A stretch of DNA of 64,000 nucleotides. Origin: Geomonas paludis (lineage in GTDB: Bacteria > Desulfobacterota > Desulfuromonadia > Geobacterales > Geobacteraceae). Within the stretch, counting starts at the first letter, position 1. Every line of letters begins with the position of its first letter. A program made the position numbers and the translations under genes. The notes below the pieces were generated by a model. It ran no database searches. It was not told the DNA's origin and saw nothing but the letters and a program-made list of their open reading frames with translations. The DNA is taken from positions 62,001-126,000 of the forward strand of contig NZ_BLXY01000003.1 in assembly GCF_014193585.1 (NCBI RefSeq), given 5' to 3'. Below are positions 14,983 through 24,506 of this stretch, piece by piece.

Positions 14983-15107
14983 GAAGTCAAAGATGGACAT
15001 GGTTACAATGCTCTAAAACAGTCAATTGGCCTGTCAGTGAATCCCGCGGTAATGCCTTGCCATCATCAGCTCCCCCGGTAGAATTGTCACTTGTGCAAGG
15101 AGGTACC

Positions 15108-16073
15108 GTGGCGAAGAACTTCCTGAAAACCTCACGGCTGGACCAGTTCCTGGAGACGCTGCGCCTCTTCGGAGAACTGCACGCACCGACCATCTCCGAG
15201 AGCGGGGTGCACGGGTTCGCGCCCCTGGACGACCCCGCCGATCTGAACCTTGACTACCGCCGCACCCAGATTCCCCCCAAGAAATACCTGCTCCCCTTCA
15301 GGGAAGAGATCCTCCAGTGCGCCGGCGGCAAGTACCGTGAAGGGAACTCCGGAGCCGGCGACATGGTCCTGTTCGGCGTCCACAGCTGCGACCTGGAAGG
15401 TATCGCCTACCTGGACCGGGTTTTCCTGTCCGACCCCGTTGATCCGGGATATTCCGCGCGCAGGGCCCGCCTGACGCTGGTGGGCATCTCCTGTGTTCCG
15501 GACGACTACTGCTTTTGCCCGGAAGAAATGACATCCACCGCCTGCGATCTCTTCCTGGGCGCCTCGGCAGAAGGCTTCCATCTCAGCTGTTACAGCACCA
15601 GGGGACGCGCCCTGCTCGCCGCGGCGGAGCACCTGCTCGAGGAAGGAGCCCCCCTGCCGGCAGCGACCTGCTCCGGCCCCTGCTTCCCCCCCCAGGACCC
15701 GGACCTTCGCTTTTCCGACCACCCGCTTTGGCAGAAGTTCGCCTCCACCTGCGTCTCCTGCGGGGCCTGCTCGGTCTGCTGCCCAACCTGTTACTGCTTT
15801 GACGTGCGCGAGTACCCGGGGCTTGCCGGGGGAGGCACGCGCATCAGGGAGTGGGACAACTGCCTGTTCGCCACTCACGGCGAGGTGGCGGGGGCGAACT
15901 TCCGCCCGGACCGGCTGGACAGGCTGCGTTACCGCTTCCTGCACAAGTACTGCGGTTTCACCCCGCTGCAGGGGACCAGTTCCTGCGTCGGCTGCGGCCG
16001 TTGCAAGGCGGTCTGCCCGGTGGATATCGACCTGCGCGAACTCACCGTCGCGCCGAAACGGGTGCAGCCATGA
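15108..16073 (+). CDS. hydB: NiFe hydrogenase group 3b, iron-sulfur beta subunit
   Basis: The 321-residue protein carries two ferredoxin-type clusters near its C-terminus: CVSCGACSVCCPTCYCFDV and CVGCGRCKAVCPVDID. The N-terminal two thirds match the anaerobic sulfite reductase A / HydB family (FGVHSCDLEGIAYLDRVF). The subunit passes electrons between the small and the flavin subunits. The GTG at 15108 is preceded by an ideal AAGGAGGT. The stop overlaps the next start as ATGA. The order beta, gamma, delta, alpha is that of Pyrococcus hydBGDA. Confidence 0.88.
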   Translation: MAKNFLKTSRLDQFLETLRLFGELHAPTISESGVHGFAPLDDPADLNLDYRRTQIPPKKYLLPFREEILQCAGGKYREGNSGAGDMVLFGVHSCDLEGIAYLDRVFLSDPVDPGYSARRARLTLVGISCVPDDYCFCPEEMTSTACDLFLGASAEGFHLSCYSTRGRALLAAAEHLLEEGAPLPAATCSGPCFPPQDPDLRFSDHPLWQKFASTCVSCGACSVCCPTCYCFDVREYPGLAGGGTRIREWDNCLFATHGEVAGANFRPDRLDRLRYRFLHKYCGFTPLQGTSSCVGCGRCKAVCPVDIDLRELTVAPKRVQP

Positions 16074-16921
16074 AACAGCCCCACCACTCGCCTCACCTCC
16101 CCTATTCCGCGTACCTGGTCGAGCGTCGCGACCTCTCCGAGGACACCTCCCTGTTCCGCATCGCGCCCGAAGCGGACGCGTTGACCGAACTTTCCTCCTT
16201 CGTTCCCGGGCAGTTCGTGCAGCTCTCGGTCCCCGGGGGCGGCGAGATCCCGATTTCGCCAGCGGACCTCCCCGCTGCCCAGGGAACGGTGGAGTTGTGC
16301 GTGCGCCGCGTGGGACACGTCACCGAACTGCTGCACAAGCTCGAACCGGGGGCCCAACTGGGACTACGCGGCCCCTTCGGCTGCGGCTTCCCCCTCGACG
16401 ACATGGCCGGCCGGCCGGTCCTGCTCCTTGCCGGAGGGCTGGGGATCGCCCCCCTGCGTTCGCTGCTCATGCACCTTTTGCGGCAGAGGGAGCGTTACGG
16501 CGACATCACCCTCATGTACGGCGCCAAGCAGCCCGGGCTCATGCTGTTCCGCGAGGAGTTGGCCGCCCTCGCCGCCGCCGGTGGCATGCGGCTCTACCTC
16601 ACCGTCGATTTCGCACCGGAGCAGCTGGAAGGCGGCTATTCCTGCGCCATCGGTCTGTTGCCCGACCTCCTGAAGGGTTTCCGCTTCGATGCCGCCAACA
16701 CCTATGCCGCCGTGTGCGGTCCGCCCCCTCTGTACCGTTGCCTGGTCGCCGACCTCGAACGCGCCGGGGTCGCGGCGCAGCGGATCCTGCTCAGCCTGGA
16801 ACGCAGGATGCGCTGCGGCGTGGGCCGCTGCTGCCACTGCGCAATCGGACAGAAACTGTGCTGCGTGGACGGGCCCGTGTTCCGGGCCAGCGATCTGAAA
16901 GGCATTCCGGAGGCGCTATGA
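16070..16921 (+). CDS. hydG: NiFe hydrogenase group 3b, FAD/NAD(P)-binding gamma subunit
   Basis: The 283-residue ferredoxin-NADP reductase-like subunit has the FAD site GGGEIPISPAD near residue 60 and the nucleotide site LLLAGGLGIAPLRSL near 122. The C-terminal [2Fe-2S] ligands lie in RCGVGRCCHCAIGQKLCC followed by VDGPVF, the dihydroorotate dehydrogenase K type. It exchanges hydride with NADP(H). The ATG overlaps the previous stop by four bases and its own stop overlaps the next start by four, so all the subunits are translationally coupled. Confidence 0.9.
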   Translation: MKQPHHSPHLPYSAYLVERRDLSEDTSLFRIAPEADALTELSSFVPGQFVQLSVPGGGEIPISPADLPAAQGTVELCVRRVGHVTELLHKLEPGAQLGLRGPFGCGFPLDDMAGRPVLLLAGGLGIAPLRSLLMHLLRQRERYGDITLMYGAKQPGLMLFREELAALAAAGGMRLYLTVDFAPEQLEGGYSCAIGLLPDLLKGFRFDAANTYAAVCGPPPLYRCLVADLERAGVAAQRILLSLERRMRCGVGRCCHCAIGQKLCCVDGPVFRASDLKGIPEAL

Positions 16922-17676
16922 GACCGATGAAAATCGCCATAACCGGCCTCACGGCCTGTTCCGGCTGCCAGCTCACCCTGTTGAACTGCGAGGACCAACT
17001 CCCGGACCTGCTGGCGCGCTGCGAACTGGTCTACTTCCCGCTCGCCGAAAGCGGCAACACGCTGGAGGTGAAGTTCGACGCCGCCATCGTGGAAGGAGCC
17101 GTTTCCACCCCGAAAGACCTGGAACTCCTGTTCCAACTCAGAAACGCCAGCACGCACCTGGTCGCCTACGGGACCTGCGCGCTCTTTGGCGGCGTCGCCG
17201 CCATGAACAACAGGACCAGTTGCAGGCAGGATCTGCTGCACACGGTATTCGGCGCAGCAGAGAAGCTGCCGGAGAGCTTTGCCCCCGCCCCGTTGGCCAA
17301 CTACGTCAGCGTGGACGCCGCTGTCACCGGGTGTCCGCCGGAAAAGCAGGAGATCGCGGAACTGGTGGCAGCGCTCGCCGCCGGCACCCTCCCACCGCCC
17401 CGCTCCTACCCGGTCTGCACCGAGTGCCGCAGCCGGGAGAACCTATGCCTGCTACTGGAGAAAAAGGAGCTTTGCCTGGGGCCGGTGGTGCAGGGAGGAT
17501 GCAACGCGCGCTGCCCCGCCACAGGAATCGTCTGCGAGGGGTGCCGGGGACCGGTACGCGAGGCCAACGTGGCCCAGGAGCTGGAGCTGTTGCTGGAGCG
17601 AGGCTTCGGCAGGGACGAGATCGAACGCAGGATGAGCCGTTTCAAACCGGAGTGGGACTATGGGCAGCGTCGTTGA
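16918..17676 (+). CDS. hydD: NiFe hydrogenase group 3b, small (delta) subunit
   Basis: The 252-residue protein binds the proximal Fe-S cluster. It begins MRPMKIAITGLTACSGCQLT, where the CSGCQ pair supplies the first two ligands. YGTCALFGG gives the third and VTGCPPEK the fourth. Further cysteine clusters (CTECRSRENLC, GCNARCPATGIVCEGC) are typical of group 3 small subunits. There is no twin-arginine signal, so the enzyme is cytoplasmic. The 3' end overlaps the large-subunit gene by 17 bases. Confidence 0.9.
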   Translation: MRPMKIAITGLTACSGCQLTLLNCEDQLPDLLARCELVYFPLAESGNTLEVKFDAAIVEGAVSTPKDLELLFQLRNASTHLVAYGTCALFGGVAAMNNRTSCRQDLLHTVFGAAEKLPESFAPAPLANYVSVDAAVTGCPPEKQEIAELVAALAAGTLPPPRSYPVCTECRSRENLCLLLEKKELCLGPVVQGGCNARCPATGIVCEGCRGPVREANVAQELELLLERGFGRDEIERRMSRFKPEWDYGQRR

Positions 17677-18931
17677 AATAGCGCCTCTCACCAGGCTGGA
17701 AGGTCACGGCAGGGTCCGCATCTACCGGGAGGGATGCCGGGTCGAGCGGGTCGAACTGCAGTTCGTCGATTCGCCCCGCCTCTTCGAGGCGCTCCTGGTC
17801 GGGAAGAGTTTTGCCGAGGTGCCGGAGATCATCTGCCGCATCTGCGCGCTCTGTTCCACGGTGCACAAGGTGACCGCGCTTCTGGCCGTGGAGAACGCTT
17901 TCGGCGTCGAGGTCTCCGAGGTGACCTCCCTCACCCGCGACCTCATGCTGCAGGCGGGCATGGTCCAGGACCACGCGCTGCACCTGTACTGCCTGGTGCT
18001 GCCGGACCTGTTGGGTGTGCGGGGTGTGGCCGAACTGGCGCGGGTCGCCCCGGAACTGCTCAAGACCGGACTGGCGATCAAGAAGGCCGGCAACCTGGTC
18101 CTGGAAACCGCCGGGGGGAGGCTCATCCACCCGGTCAACATCTGCCTTGGGGGGCTCGGCCGTTGCCTGAACAGGAAGGAACTGACGCTGCTCAGGGATG
18201 AGCTTCAGAAGGTGCTCCCGGCGGCGCAGGAGGCGCATCGCCTCTTCAGCACCCCGTTCCCCTTCCCCGAACTTCCCGCCCCCGATTTTCTCGCCCTGCA
18301 CCCCAGCGACCGCCCGCTGCAGGCGCAACTGTGCCGCATGGGCGACGACCCGGCGTTTCCGCTGCGGGACTACCGGGAGCACATCGAGGAGACCGTGCTC
18401 GAGTACTCCCACGCCAAGCTGTCGAAGGTGCACGGCAAAGAAGCCACCGTCGGAGCCCAGGCCCGGCTCAACCAGGGGCCCGACCTGGAGCCGCTCGCCG
18501 CGAAGCTTTTCGCCGACCACAGGCATGAACTGGTCGGCAGGGACATGCGGGGCAACAACCTGGCCCAGGCGATAGAGATGTGCCACGCCACCGAAAGGGC
18601 ACTGCGCCTGGTGGAACGGCTCATGGAGCTTGGTACCCGGCGGGCGGACGCGGCGCCCATTGCCCCGCGTGCCGCGACAGGTTGTGCCGCCTGCGAGGCG
18701 CCGCGCGGCACCCTGATCCACAGCTATAGCTTCGACCCGCAAGGGATCTGCAGCGCGGCCGACGTCATCACCCCCACCGCGCTGAACCAGGGGGCCCTGG
18801 CCCGCGACCTGCTCGCCCTGGCCCGCGGCATGGAGGGCGAAGAGACCAGCCGCATGACGACCGCAGTGGAGCGCCTGATCCGCTGCTACGATCCCTGTAT
18901 CTCCTGCTCGGTACACGTCCTGTCACTCTAA
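17660..18931 (+). CDS. hydA: NiFe hydrogenase group 3b, large (alpha) catalytic subunit
   Basis: The 423-residue subunit has the four Ni-Fe ligands in RICALCSTVH near residue 60 and DPCISCSVH near residues 411-419. The L1-type EGHGRVRIY is at the start. The protein ends four residues after the His of the second motif, so the peptide removed on maturation would be very short. The predicted reaction is reversible H2 oxidation coupled to NADP, or sulfur reduction (sulfhydrogenase). No hyp or protease genes are nearby, so maturation must be supplied from elsewhere in the genome. Confidence 0.92.
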   Translation: MGSVVEIAPLTRLEGHGRVRIYREGCRVERVELQFVDSPRLFEALLVGKSFAEVPEIICRICALCSTVHKVTALLAVENAFGVEVSEVTSLTRDLMLQAGMVQDHALHLYCLVLPDLLGVRGVAELARVAPELLKTGLAIKKAGNLVLETAGGRLIHPVNICLGGLGRCLNRKELTLLRDELQKVLPAAQEAHRLFSTPFPFPELPAPDFLALHPSDRPLQAQLCRMGDDPAFPLRDYREHIEETVLEYSHAKLSKVHGKEATVGAQARLNQGPDLEPLAAKLFADHRHELVGRDMRGNNLAQAIEMCHATERALRLVERLMELGTRRADAAPIAPRAATGCAACEAPRGTLIHSYSFDPQGICSAADVITPTALNQGALARDLLALARGMEGEETSRMTTAVERLIRCYDPCISCSVHVLSL

Positions 18932-19205: not shown

Positions 19206-19233
19206 TTGACACTCATAGCGCGGTTGCTAGACT
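19206..19233 (+). promoter_or_regulatory. Sigma70 promoter of the 6S RNA gene
   Basis: TTGACA at 19206-19211, a 16-bp spacer, TAGACT at 19228-19233; transcription would start near 19240. Confidence 0.65.
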
Positions 19234-19239
19234 TGGGTC

Positions 19240-19450
19240 AAGCTTTAGCATGTCAATGCGAGCGGCTCTGGAATACTCGTTGCGCATCCGTTTGGGTCCC
19301 TGACTACCTTTATTATCAAGATGTCCCTGGTTTCAGTCGTGGTGAGCAAGCCCTCAACAAGGCAGAGGGAAGCCTGAAGCGTCTCACCGGGGTATGTTGC
19401 GACACAGGTCAGTAATCCAATCTTCCTCGTGGCGGTATTCCGGAGCAAAA
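19240..19450 (+). ncRNA. ssrS: 6S RNA
   Basis: 6S RNA mimics an open promoter and sequesters the housekeeping RNA polymerase. GCTCTGGAATAC (19265-19276) pairs with GTATTCCGGAGC (19435-19446) with one wobble, closing a 182-nt rod of typical 6S length. The apical part is GGTGAG (19341)...CTCACC (19383) around CCCTC...GAGGG. The flanks GGTGAGCAAGCCC, GAGGGAAGCCTGAA and GTTGCGACACAGG resemble the conserved 6S core seen in E. coli (GGTGAGCATGCTC, GAGAAGCCTTAA, CTGCGACGACACA). It is preceded by a good promoter. The exact mature ends are uncertain. The identification is from remembered consensus, not a covariance search. Confidence 0.8.
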
Positions 19451-19453
19451 AAA

Positions 19454-19624
19454 ATTGGCGTTAGTCGGGACAACGCTGAAAGCGACTTATCTCATCCGCC
19501 AGGCGGCTGCGCTTGAAAAAGGGAAGCCGACCGGTACGCGCTGCGAGGAGGCACCGACCGCGCAGCACCCGGCCGCGAAGCTTTACCGACGGATTGGAAG
19601 AAAGTGCCCCGCTCTAACGCCAAT
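19454..19624 (+). ncRNA. Unrecognised structured RNA between 6S RNA and the terminator
   Basis: A perfect 11-bp stem, ATTGGCGTTAG (19454-19464) with CTAACGCCAAT (19614-19624), closes a 171-nt domain. Inside are AAGCG...CGCTT (19480/19510) around CCGCC-A-GGCGG, and GCTGCG...CGCAGC (19540/19561) inside CCGG...CCGG. An alternative hairpin GCGTT/AACGC (19459-19475) competes with the closing stem. Several GGA triplets occur, two of them in predicted loops (GGGA and AGGAGG), as in CsrA-binding RNAs. No open frame or known riboswitch consensus fits. It lies on the 6S transcript unless a separate promoter was missed. Function unknown. Confidence 0.6.
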
Positions 19625-19634
19625 GCAGGGAAAA

Positions 19635-19661
19635 GGCCCATGGAACCCATGGGCCTTTTTT
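19635..19661 (+). terminator. Terminator of the 6S/unknown RNA transcript
   Basis: GGCCCATG-GAACC-CATGGGCC is a perfect 8-bp stem directly followed by six T residues. Confidence 0.92.
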
Positions 19662-19944
19662 AGTGTCCGTAAAAGTCCGGCAGGGGACGTTTCTCATAAA
19701 GCACCCAATTCGCGGCCAGTTGCGGTAGTTACCCCCATGCCGCGAAGCCCCCCGCAACCGGTTGAGCGCAAGACGGTAAGACATTATCTAACTACCTATA
19801 TTGTTGGGATAAATGATGCAAGCGATCTTCCACAAGAACTGTGGAAAACTCTGTGGGTAACGCCCCTTCAAAACGAAAAAACCGACGTGGCAATCGCTAA
19901 TGATAGCGTTTTGCTCATTTTTTAGGCAGACCAATCACACCAAT
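19662..19944. other. Gene-free stretch between the RNA terminator and hsp20
   Basis: No gene is supported here. A short hairpin CGCTA-ATGA-TAGCG followed by TTTTGCTCATTTTTT lies at 19895-19920 and could act as a weak plus-strand terminator. The words TTCCACAAG, TGTGGAAAA and TGTGGGTAA at about 19832-19860 resemble DnaA boxes but are too few and imperfect to be an origin. Confidence 0.4.
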
Positions 19945-22397: not shown

Positions 22398-23828
22398 ATG
22401 ACGTACTCGGCACTGCTGACCGACCTTTACGAACTGACCATGCTGGCGGGATACCATGACCAGGGAATGCACCAGCGGCCGGCCGCCTTCGATCTTTTCT
22501 TTCGCCACAACCCGTTTCGCGGCGGCTACGCGGTCTTTGCCGGGCTCGATACCGCCCTCTCCTTCCTGGAAGAGCTCTCCTTCAAAAGCGACGAGCTCGC
22601 CTACCTCGACAGCCTGAAGATCTTCAAACCCGCCTTTCTCAATTACCTCTCCGAGTTCCGCTTTACAGGCAAGGTAACCGCGCCGCCCGAGGGGACAGTC
22701 GTGTTCGGCGGAGAACCGCTGCTCACCGTGGAGGGTGGCCTCGCCGAGGCGCAGTTCGTCGAGACGGCACTGTTGAACATCATCAACTTCCAGACCCTGG
22801 CGGCAACCAAGGCGGCGCGCATCAAGATCGCAGCCGGCGCTGCCACCGTGCTGGAATTCGGACTGCGCCGCGCCCAGGGTCCCGACGGCGGGCTTTCCGG
22901 AGCCCGGGCCGCCTTCATCGGCGGCGTGCGCTCCACCAGCAACGTGCTGGCGGGGATGCGCTACGGCATCCCGGTGCGCGGCACCCATGCCCACAGCTGG
23001 ATCATGGCCTTCCCGGACGAACTGACCGCTTTTCGGACCTACGCCAAGGAGTTCCCGGACAGCTGCGTCCTCCTGATCGACACCTACGACACCTTGCAGA
23101 GCGGCCTCCCCAATGCGCTGATCGTGGCGCGCGAGCTGAAGGAGCGCGGCCATGACTTGGCCGGCGTCCGCATCGACTCGGGCGACCTTGCCTACCTCTC
23201 CCGCCAGGTCCGCGCCGCCTTCGACGAGGCCGGTTTCCCGGGGGTGAAGATCGTCGCCTCCAACGAACTGGACGAGCACGTGATCGAATCCATGCGCCGG
23301 GAAGGAAGCAGGATCGACATCTACGGGGTCGGCACCCGCCTGGCCACCTGCGCCGGCGAGGGAGGCGGCGCCCTGGGCGGAGTGTACAAGCTGGTGTCCA
23401 TGAACGGCGAAGCCAAACTGAAGCTCACCAGCGACGTGGCCAAGGCCACCCTTCCGGACCGGAAGAAGGTGCTGCGTGCCATTGCCCCGGACGGCTCCTT
23501 CATCCTGGACCTGATCGCGTTGCAGGACGAGGAAGTGCTGCCCGGCACAGTGGTCTTCGATCCAGCCAACCCGGTACGGCACGTCCGGATCCCGGAGCAG
23601 GCGCGACTGGTCGATCTGCGTCGCATGGTGATGGAAAACGGCCGCAGGTGCCTCCCCACGCCGGACCTGGAGAGCAGCGCCGACCTCGCCTCGGCACAGC
23701 TGCAACTGCTGCCGGAAGGATGCCTGCGCCTGGTCAACCCGCATATCTACAAGGTATCAATCAGCGCCGGGGTCAACACGCTGCGCCTGAAACTGATGAC
23801 CCGAATCCAGAGCAAATACCGCATCTAG
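22398..23828 (+). CDS. pncB: Nicotinate phosphoribosyltransferase
   Basis: The 476-residue enzyme makes nicotinate mononucleotide from nicotinate and PRPP. Signatures are SALLTDLYELTMLAGY at the start, FGLRRAQGPDGG near 160, RGTHAHSWIMAF with the phosphorylated catalytic His near 200, and AGVRIDSGDLAYLSRQVRAA near 265. The start is the ATG at 22398 after GGGGGGA. The nicotinamidase gene follows 45 bases downstream, so the pair converts nicotinamide to NaMN in two steps. Confidence 0.94.
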   Translation: MTYSALLTDLYELTMLAGYHDQGMHQRPAAFDLFFRHNPFRGGYAVFAGLDTALSFLEELSFKSDELAYLDSLKIFKPAFLNYLSEFRFTGKVTAPPEGTVVFGGEPLLTVEGGLAEAQFVETALLNIINFQTLAATKAARIKIAAGAATVLEFGLRRAQGPDGGLSGARAAFIGGVRSTSNVLAGMRYGIPVRGTHAHSWIMAFPDELTAFRTYAKEFPDSCVLLIDTYDTLQSGLPNALIVARELKERGHDLAGVRIDSGDLAYLSRQVRAAFDEAGFPGVKIVASNELDEHVIESMRREGSRIDIYGVGTRLATCAGEGGGALGGVYKLVSMNGEAKLKLTSDVAKATLPDRKKVLRAIAPDGSFILDLIALQDEEVLPGTVVFDPANPVRHVRIPEQARLVDLRRMVMENGRRCLPTPDLESSADLASAQLQLLPEGCLRLVNPHIYKVSISAGVNTLRLKLMTRIQSKYRI

Positions 23829-23873
23829 AGCCGGTCGGCAGCTGCGCCGACGAAACGGCAAAGGAGGTACGCG

Positions 23874-24506
23874 ATGCAACGCAGAGCCGCCCTGCTCGTG
23901 ATCGACGTACAGCTCGATTTCTGTCCCGGAGGCGCCCTCCCCGTGTCCAACGGTGACCAGGTGGTGCCGGTGCTCAACCTCTACCTCGAACTCTTCAACA
24001 TGAGGAGTGTGCCGGTCTTCGCGTCCCGGGACTGGCACCCGGAGCACAGCAAACACTTCAAGGAACAGGGCGGCATCTGGCCCCCGCACTGCGTCCAGGG
24101 CTCGCCGGGCGCCGACTTCCACCCCGGCCTGAGACTGCCGAAAGGGACCATCGTCATCTCCAAGGGGATGTCCAGCTGGGACAACGGCTACTCGGCCATG
24201 CAGGGGACCACGGAAAACGGCACCCCCTTCGCCATGCTGCTGCGCCGCATGGAGCTGGACCGGCTCTACGTCGGGGGACTGGCGACGGATTACTGCGTGA
24301 AGGAGACCGTGCTGGAAGCGCTCAAGGAAGGGTTTGCGGTGACGGTGCTGACCGATGCGGTACGTGGAGTCGACGTGAAGCCGGGCGACACGGAGCGGGC
24401 GCTGCAGGAGATGCGGCGAGCCGGTGCCGACCAGACTACCTTCTCCTCGGTCCGCAGCGCCCTGCTCGCCGATGGTGAGGCGCGCCCCCCTGCCAGAACG
24501 GGGTAA
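23874..24506 (+). CDS. pncA: Nicotinamidase
   Basis: The 210-residue isochorismatase-fold enzyme has the catalytic triad Asp11 (LLVIDVQLDFCPGGAL), a Lys in LPKGTIVISKG near residues 90-97, and a Cys in GLATDYCVKETVL near residue 143. The metal site is the DWHPEH segment near residue 53. It hydrolyses nicotinamide to nicotinate for pncB. AGGAGGT precedes the ATG, and a strong terminator lies 48 bases downstream. Confidence 0.94.
   Translation: MQRRAALLVIDVQLDFCPGGALPVSNGDQVVPVLNLYLELFNMRSVPVFASRDWHPEHSKHFKEQGGIWPPHCVQGSPGADFHPGLRLPKGTIVISKGMSSWDNGYSAMQGTTENGTPFAMLLRRMELDRLYVGGLATDYCVKETVLEALKEGFAVTVLTDAVRGVDVKPGDTERALQEMRRAGADQTTFSSVRSALLADGEARPPARTG

Follow-up and report, generated by a model that had tools for sequence, protein, structure and literature searches.

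The diverged 6S RNA encoded in a 64,000-nt stretch of Geomonas paludis DNA (contig NZ_BLXY01000003.1, hereafter the window) appears to share its transcript with a second structured RNA. At a probability of about 0.6, we regard this second RNA, termed here the element, as an independent gene for a trans-acting structured non-coding RNA of about 170–190 nt, which shares its transcript with the diverged 6S RNA (6S-2) and occupies the 3' half. At the sequence level, this reading is supported by the conserved fold, the fusion with 6S-2, the occurrence of separate copies, the non-coding character of the element and the presence of boxA at most transcript starts. A second structured RNA on the 6S transcript had been proposed from the letters of the locus, and this proposal agrees with the separate fold domain and the covariation described below, and with the arrangement of transcript signals, as neither a promoter nor a terminator is seen between 6S-2 and the element.

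The 6S RNA of the window matches Rfam family RF00013 above its cut-off of 46.4 bits, and the element begins 3 nt behind it. The RF00013 match covers the 6S RNA only and does not extend into the element. In the joint fold of positions 19246–19661, 6S RNA, element and terminator form three separate domains. The element has the layout described in the sequence-only reading, a 171-nt domain that is closed by a perfect 11-bp stem and followed by the terminator. The element and terminator together (19454–19661) fold with an energy of -91.7 kcal/mol, compared with -73.1 ± 4.3 kcal/mol for dinucleotide shuffles (z = -4.3, 0 of 200 shuffles as good). The TTGACA and TAGACT boxes of the predicted promoter are repeated in the nearest relatives of the genus, and a hairpin followed by U residues, equivalent to the window terminator, is also located 3' of the element in relatives of the order.

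Table 1 Features of the 6S-2/element locus in the window (predicted from sequence and alignments)
Feature	Position	Strand	Basis or remark
Sigma70-type promoter of the 6S-2/element transcript	19206–19233	+	TTGACA-16-TAGACT, TG before -10; consensus scan 10/12
6S-2 RNA, diverged 6S paralogue	19262–19450	+	RF00013, 49.0 bits; own model R3, 152.8 bits
A-rich junction 6S-2/element, presumed processing region with A run 19446–19453	19451–19453	+	Gap data
Structured RNA element (core)	19454–19624	+	Model R1, 163 bits; covariation; no Rfam match
P1 closing stem, 5' strand	19454–19464	+	Partner 19614–19624; perfect 11 bp
P1 closing stem, 3' strand	19614–19624	+	Partner 19454–19464
P2, 5' strand	19466–19469	+	Partner 19608–19611
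P3 hairpin, loop often GNRA or NGAAA-type	19474–19484	+	Pairing and loop letters across homologs
P4, 5' strand AUCCG	19494–19498	+	Partner CGGAU 19590–19594
P5 hairpin, AGGCG-loop-CGCUU	19501–19514	+	Covariation
A-rich joint P5/P6, conserved	19516–19520	+	AAAAA near-invariant in the order
P6 arm	19521–19587	+	Base 19521–19527/19580–19587; distal portion variable
Intrinsic terminator of the transcript	19629–19661	+	15-bp stem, 3-nt loop, U run in fold

Homologs of the element were searched for within the phylum Desulfobacterota. A DNA search of 58 relatives finds the locus in 34, and 26 of the 30 loci inspected contain a recognisable element. Model R1, built from a MAFFT alignment of 20 sequences, matches the element in 75 of the 141 genomes of the order, often in two or three copies each, and in 8 of the 297 genomes of a phylum sample. 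Model R2, built from 100 sequences, finds it in 53 of 145 genomes of the class and in 17 of 395 genomes of the phylum sample, belonging to 14 genera. One model match (G133, 23.9 bits), which has no 6S RNA and no visible promoter, is probably false. Within the genus, 6S-2 and the element have mean pairwise identities of 0.87 and 0.85, compared with 0.62 and 0.54 for the upstream and downstream flanks.

The sequence-only reading had suggested a covariation check on related loci, and strong compensatory changes are indeed found in the closing stem and in other stems. In 100 homologs aligned to R1, standard pairs occupy 90.9% of the cells (77.6% after shuffling), double compensatory changes occur at 27 of the 33 pairs, and double-change cells number 468, compared with 139 in shuffled alignments and 41–72 in slid structures, all values from an alignment that is fitted to R1 and leans toward the model. 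The model-free MAFFT alignment of 20 sequences contains 48 double-change cells, compared with 18.5 after shuffling and 4–14 in slid structures; because the sequences are related, such shuffle counts are not probabilities. Judged by these comparisons, the fold of the element is under selection, and the element is a structured non-coding RNA conserved across the order and in the wider phylum.

Among the 100 homologs, the closing stem P1 shows double changes at all nine modelled pairs, with 94% of the cells paired, and P2 shows them in four of four modelled pairs (three of four in the model-free alignment). P3 is paired in 93% of the cells and carries double changes at three of three pairs, P4 is 97% paired with a nearly invariant sequence core, and P5, whose family form is AGGYG/CRCYU, is 92% paired with double changes in three of five pairs, one of them from C-G to A-U/U-A. 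The A-rich joint between P5 and P6 reads UAAGGA in the distant families. The basal pairs of P6 covary, and a distal GGUC..GAGC hairpin is found in 55 of 110 copies, compared with 8 of 110 shuffles; it is missing from the window copy and kept in the second copy of this genome (L116). The near-invariant joints are CAUCCGC, AAAAA and ACCGACGGAU..AAAG, and the invariant letters cluster at paired or junction positions; conservation is concentrated at internal junctions and not at the ends of the element. A local GCGTT/AACGC hairpin, which had been read as an alternative fold of the 5' strand of the closing stem, does exist in the window; its conservation is not upheld, since it pairs in 66% of the cells and is whole in just 24 of 100 sequences, compared with 95% and 80 of 100 for the closing stem formed by the same 5' letters. 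A conserved switch based on this hairpin is accordingly rejected.

Several shortened or degenerate elements were also observed: one locus carries just the closing stem and a short hairpin behind 6S-2 (L020), two have a very short P6 arm (L149 and L248), and in another (L022, after match 1498–1677) the element core is strongly diverged.

The element had been described as free of open frames, which does not hold for the window: a TTG-start frame of 156 codons (19455–19925) spans it. Because homolog lengths are not multiples of three and in-frame stops occur, this frame is not conserved, and protein coding is rejected.

The conserved positions also bear on how the element may act. A small RNA that base-pairs with mRNAs in dependence on Hfq or ProQ would fit the intrinsic terminator with its U tail, the trans-encoded genes and the variable genomic sites. 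However, the invariant letters are paired or lie in junctions and do not form one open seed, which speaks more for a fold that binds protein or has tertiary structure. Small RNAs of this kind also rarely have 33 conserved pairs and so compact a core, and we consider action by base-pairing unlikely.

The 6S RNA beside the window element is, by its model scores, a diverged paralogue and not the canonical 6S RNA, which sits elsewhere in this genome (G000:C1:608459-608641, 73.2 bits). Most genomes of the order contain one canonical (about 60–87 bits) and one diverged 6S RNA (about 32–57 bits). The element never adjoins the canonical 6S among the loci inspected; at the 28 canonical loci examined, the 6S RNA has a terminator-like hairpin of its own on its 3' side. 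With R3, a model of the diverged 6S, a 6S-2-type RNA is found directly 5' of 86 of the 105 elements in the order, on the same strand, and the gap between R3 match and element in these 86 pairs ranges from -2 to 19 nt, mostly 1–6 nt. This genome contains a second copy of the whole arrangement (G000:C5:236816-237206, L117/L251), composed of a promoter (TTGACT..TACACT), an exact boxA, a 6S-type RNA and the element (C5:237015-237206). The 6S-type RNA of this copy is very diverged, scoring 82.2 bits with R3 and having no Rfam match; as the second element also has such a partner, the genome carries three 6S-type RNAs. The two element copies are 56% identical.

Geobacterales commonly possess two, sometimes three, 6S-type RNAs, and the diverged ones, with scores close to or under the Rfam cut-off, can readily be overlooked. 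In six loci of class relatives (L234–L238 and L249), a boxA-like leader is separated from the element by a further untranslated domain of about 100–200 nt. Most of these domains have no R3 match and are possibly another decayed 6S RNA or a different RNA. In addition, an element behind a boxA and a 6S-2-like RNA is present on a contig listed as viral (L207:10600-10800, minus strand, IMGVR_UViG_3300005804_000095), which is probably the host flank of a provirus.

At the transcript starts, boxA was taken to be a word similar to GNTCTTTGAAAA close to the 5' end, the arrangement of the rrn leader. The word GTTCTTTGAAAA or a near variant is located upstream of the 6S-2 start in most loci, usually at -10 to -12, and a boxA of at least 9 of 12 letters occurs in 72 of 110 upstream stretches, compared with about 5% of shuffles. 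In this genome, the boxA word GGTCTTTGAAAA lies about 109 nt 5' of the 16S gene; the second copy of the arrangement has a boxA of 12/12 letters, and the genome contains just three occurrences of the form GTTCTTTGAMAA. The window copy (6/12) and its close clade (6–7 of 12) contain no recognisable boxA, nor do the canonical 6S loci (28 loci, best score 7). Antitermination by boxA, NusB and S10 is an established protection of rRNA. The predicted 6S-2/element transcript, roughly 400 nt long and untranslated, would be a natural Rho target. The recurrent word suggests that boxA antitermination may operate on 6S-2/element transcripts.

Stand-alone elements exist as well. Several of them are located behind a sigma70-like promoter, for example TTGACT-17-TATAAT, and possess their own terminator; CTTGACTATTACCCTGTCGGTAGTATCATATAATC is the sigma70-like promoter before the stand-alone element in G028. 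In Geotalea-type genomes, the element and 6S-2 each occur alone. Both G028 and G033 contain the element without an adjoining 6S-2, and in G033 a diverged 6S RNA with its own terminator sits elsewhere (L029). Since some genomes have 6S-2 without the element (a few cases, L019 and L029), the pair is separable. The coupling with 6S is frequent and not obligatory, as the stand-alone copies demonstrate.

In five families (f48, f56, f62, f88 and f94), the element is a separate gene 5' of the tRNA-Sec gene (selC) on the same strand, at nine loci in total. Moreover, several genomes of f62 contain a 6S RNA 5' of the element (L112, L115, L199, L200, L202, L203 and L205; Rfam or R3 matches, partly weak). 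This gene order points to an ancestral RNA cluster 6S–element–selC, and the 6S-2/element fusion would have arisen in Geobacterales. Across the loci, the element has no constant protein-gene neighbour, and its genomic sites vary.

These separate copies argue against a role in cis, in which the element would be a 3' module for the stability, processing or insulation of 6S-2, with no function of its own. Most copies are fused to 6S-2, and the element ends in the only terminator of the transcript, as such a module would. In contrast, the stand-alone copies have their own promoter and terminator, distant families keep the element as a separate gene in the 6S–element–selC cluster, the canonical 6S needs no such module, and conservation peaks at the internal junctions instead of the ends. 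We consider a purely cis-acting module slightly less probable again than base-pairing.

The near-invariant joints, the GNRA-like loop and the variable arms give the element the look of a tertiary fold, which would suit a ribozyme or an RNA that senses a ligand in trans. However, there is no downstream gene for riboswitch control, and no Rfam ribozyme or riboswitch matches the element; this reading is improbable. A riboswitch in cis is rejected, as no downstream gene is constant.

At nine loci the element immediately precedes selC in the same orientation, which would agree with a part in the selenocysteine system. Three genomes (G333, G417 and G510) carry the element and have no tRNA-Sec match over the cut-off, which argues that the element is not a selenocysteine part; in Geobacterales, moreover, selC lies elsewhere, and such a role is very improbable. 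Weakest is the sequestration of CsrA by an RNA of the CsrB/RsmZ kind, suggested earlier from GGA triplets in or near loops and in keeping with CsrA being a regulator in G. sulfurreducens (PMC11934962): the five GGA of the window copy (shuffle mean 3.5) are all paired in the predicted fold, unpaired GGA average 0.42 over 110 copies against 0.54 after shuffling, the sole GGA column conserved in most copies is in helix P4, and no Rfam CsrB or Rsm family matches, so that the idea is scarcely credible. The element resembles CsrB/RsmZ in being probably trans-acting, terminator-ended and equipped with some GGA, whereas its GGA are neither exposed nor conserved in loops.

Other identities were rejected by searches. 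No family of Rfam 15 matches the window element on its strand up to E = 10 beyond chance-level scores, and none matches the further element loci up to E 0.3–5. The element does not replace SRP RNA or RNase P RNA, as RF00169 is found above cut-off at other places in 19 of 19 genomes and RF00010 in 22 of 22. Like the bacterial Y RNA YrlA, the element is a non-coding RNA sometimes located near tRNA genes; unlike it, it has no Rfam YrlA match, and Ro60 (TROVE) is present in 0 of 22 element-bearing genomes (a control search finds it in Deinobacterium). A mobile element is likewise rejected: the neighbours vary, yet each genome carries one to three copies, and searches of phage and plasmid records give no match to the window sequence; the single IMG/VR hit (L207) looks like host flank.

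For the trans-acting RNA that we favour, the following course may be proposed. RNA polymerase would read 6S-2 and the element from one sigma70 promoter and, where boxA is present, boxA-type antitermination would shield the untranslated RNA of roughly 400 nt from Rho. Cleavage of the short A-rich joint by a nuclease, in the window probably within 19446–19453, would then free the element, which would fold into its compact multi-helix core and act as a stable RNA–protein particle or a protein decoy. The repeated association of the element with 6S suggests that the two have a common context, the growth-phase control of transcription. Because this association has persisted, the transcription machinery is where a target would first be sought; provided that the element does bind a protein in trans, a target linked to RNA polymerase or the Nus factors is a tentative proposal.

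6S RNA is usually regarded as standing alone or as linked to a gene for a protein. The dicistronic ssrS-ygfA transcript of gammaproteobacteria contains 6S RNA and a second gene, which encodes a protein, whereas the second gene here encodes a structured RNA. The element would be a stable structured regulatory RNA, as is its transcript partner 6S RNA (RF00013, ssrS); its core is branched and multi-helical, in contrast to the long hairpin with a central bubble of 6S. Ms1 RNA of actinobacteria represents a non-6S structured RNA in a 6S/RNA polymerase setting (PMC4191392, PMC11077062); this likeness is by analogy only, as the element has no Rfam match to any such RNA.

Literature searches on Geobacter 6S and non-coding RNAs, on two 6S RNAs, on selC neighbours and on boxA in non-coding RNAs found no description of the element, and main-text passages of a survey of GC-rich intergenic RNAs that includes a Geobacter genome (PMC11109978) name no such motif, leaving room for an unnamed prior mention. 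With no Rfam match and no description found, the element appears to represent a previously unnamed RNA family. It might even stand for a housekeeping-type class of bacterial non-coding RNA that is new and of ancient origin in Desulfobacterota. Such an RNA, tied to 6S by gene fusion and to rRNA-type antitermination, would either regulate the transcription machinery as a second RNA beside 6S or work as a ribozyme; this wider view is possible but less likely than not. A diverged 6S RNA that carries a second, independently conserved RNA is of interest in a phylum of environmentally important iron and sulfur reducers. The compact, near-invariant core marks the element as a strong candidate RNP, RNA polymerase regulator or ribozyme of a new kind, and through the shared boxA it can be tested directly whether stable RNAs other than rRNA make use of rRNA antitermination.

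The surroundings of the locus contain further features. Directly upstream, a four-gene [NiFe] hydrogenase cluster (15057–18931, plus strand) encodes a 4Fe–4S subunit, an NAD/FAD-binding subunit, a small subunit and a large subunit. At 22398–24503 (plus strand), a nicotinate phosphoribosyltransferase gene lies beside a gene of the isochorismatase family (nicotinamidase-like), and the two likely form an NAD salvage pair. Past the locus, the DnaA-box-like repeats CTGTGGAAAACTCTGTGG are located at 19839–19856. Repeats of this type are expected 0.05 times in the window even with three mismatches, and CTGTGGAAAACTCTGTGG is found exactly at the same place in several relatives of the genus and in one other genus (L020).
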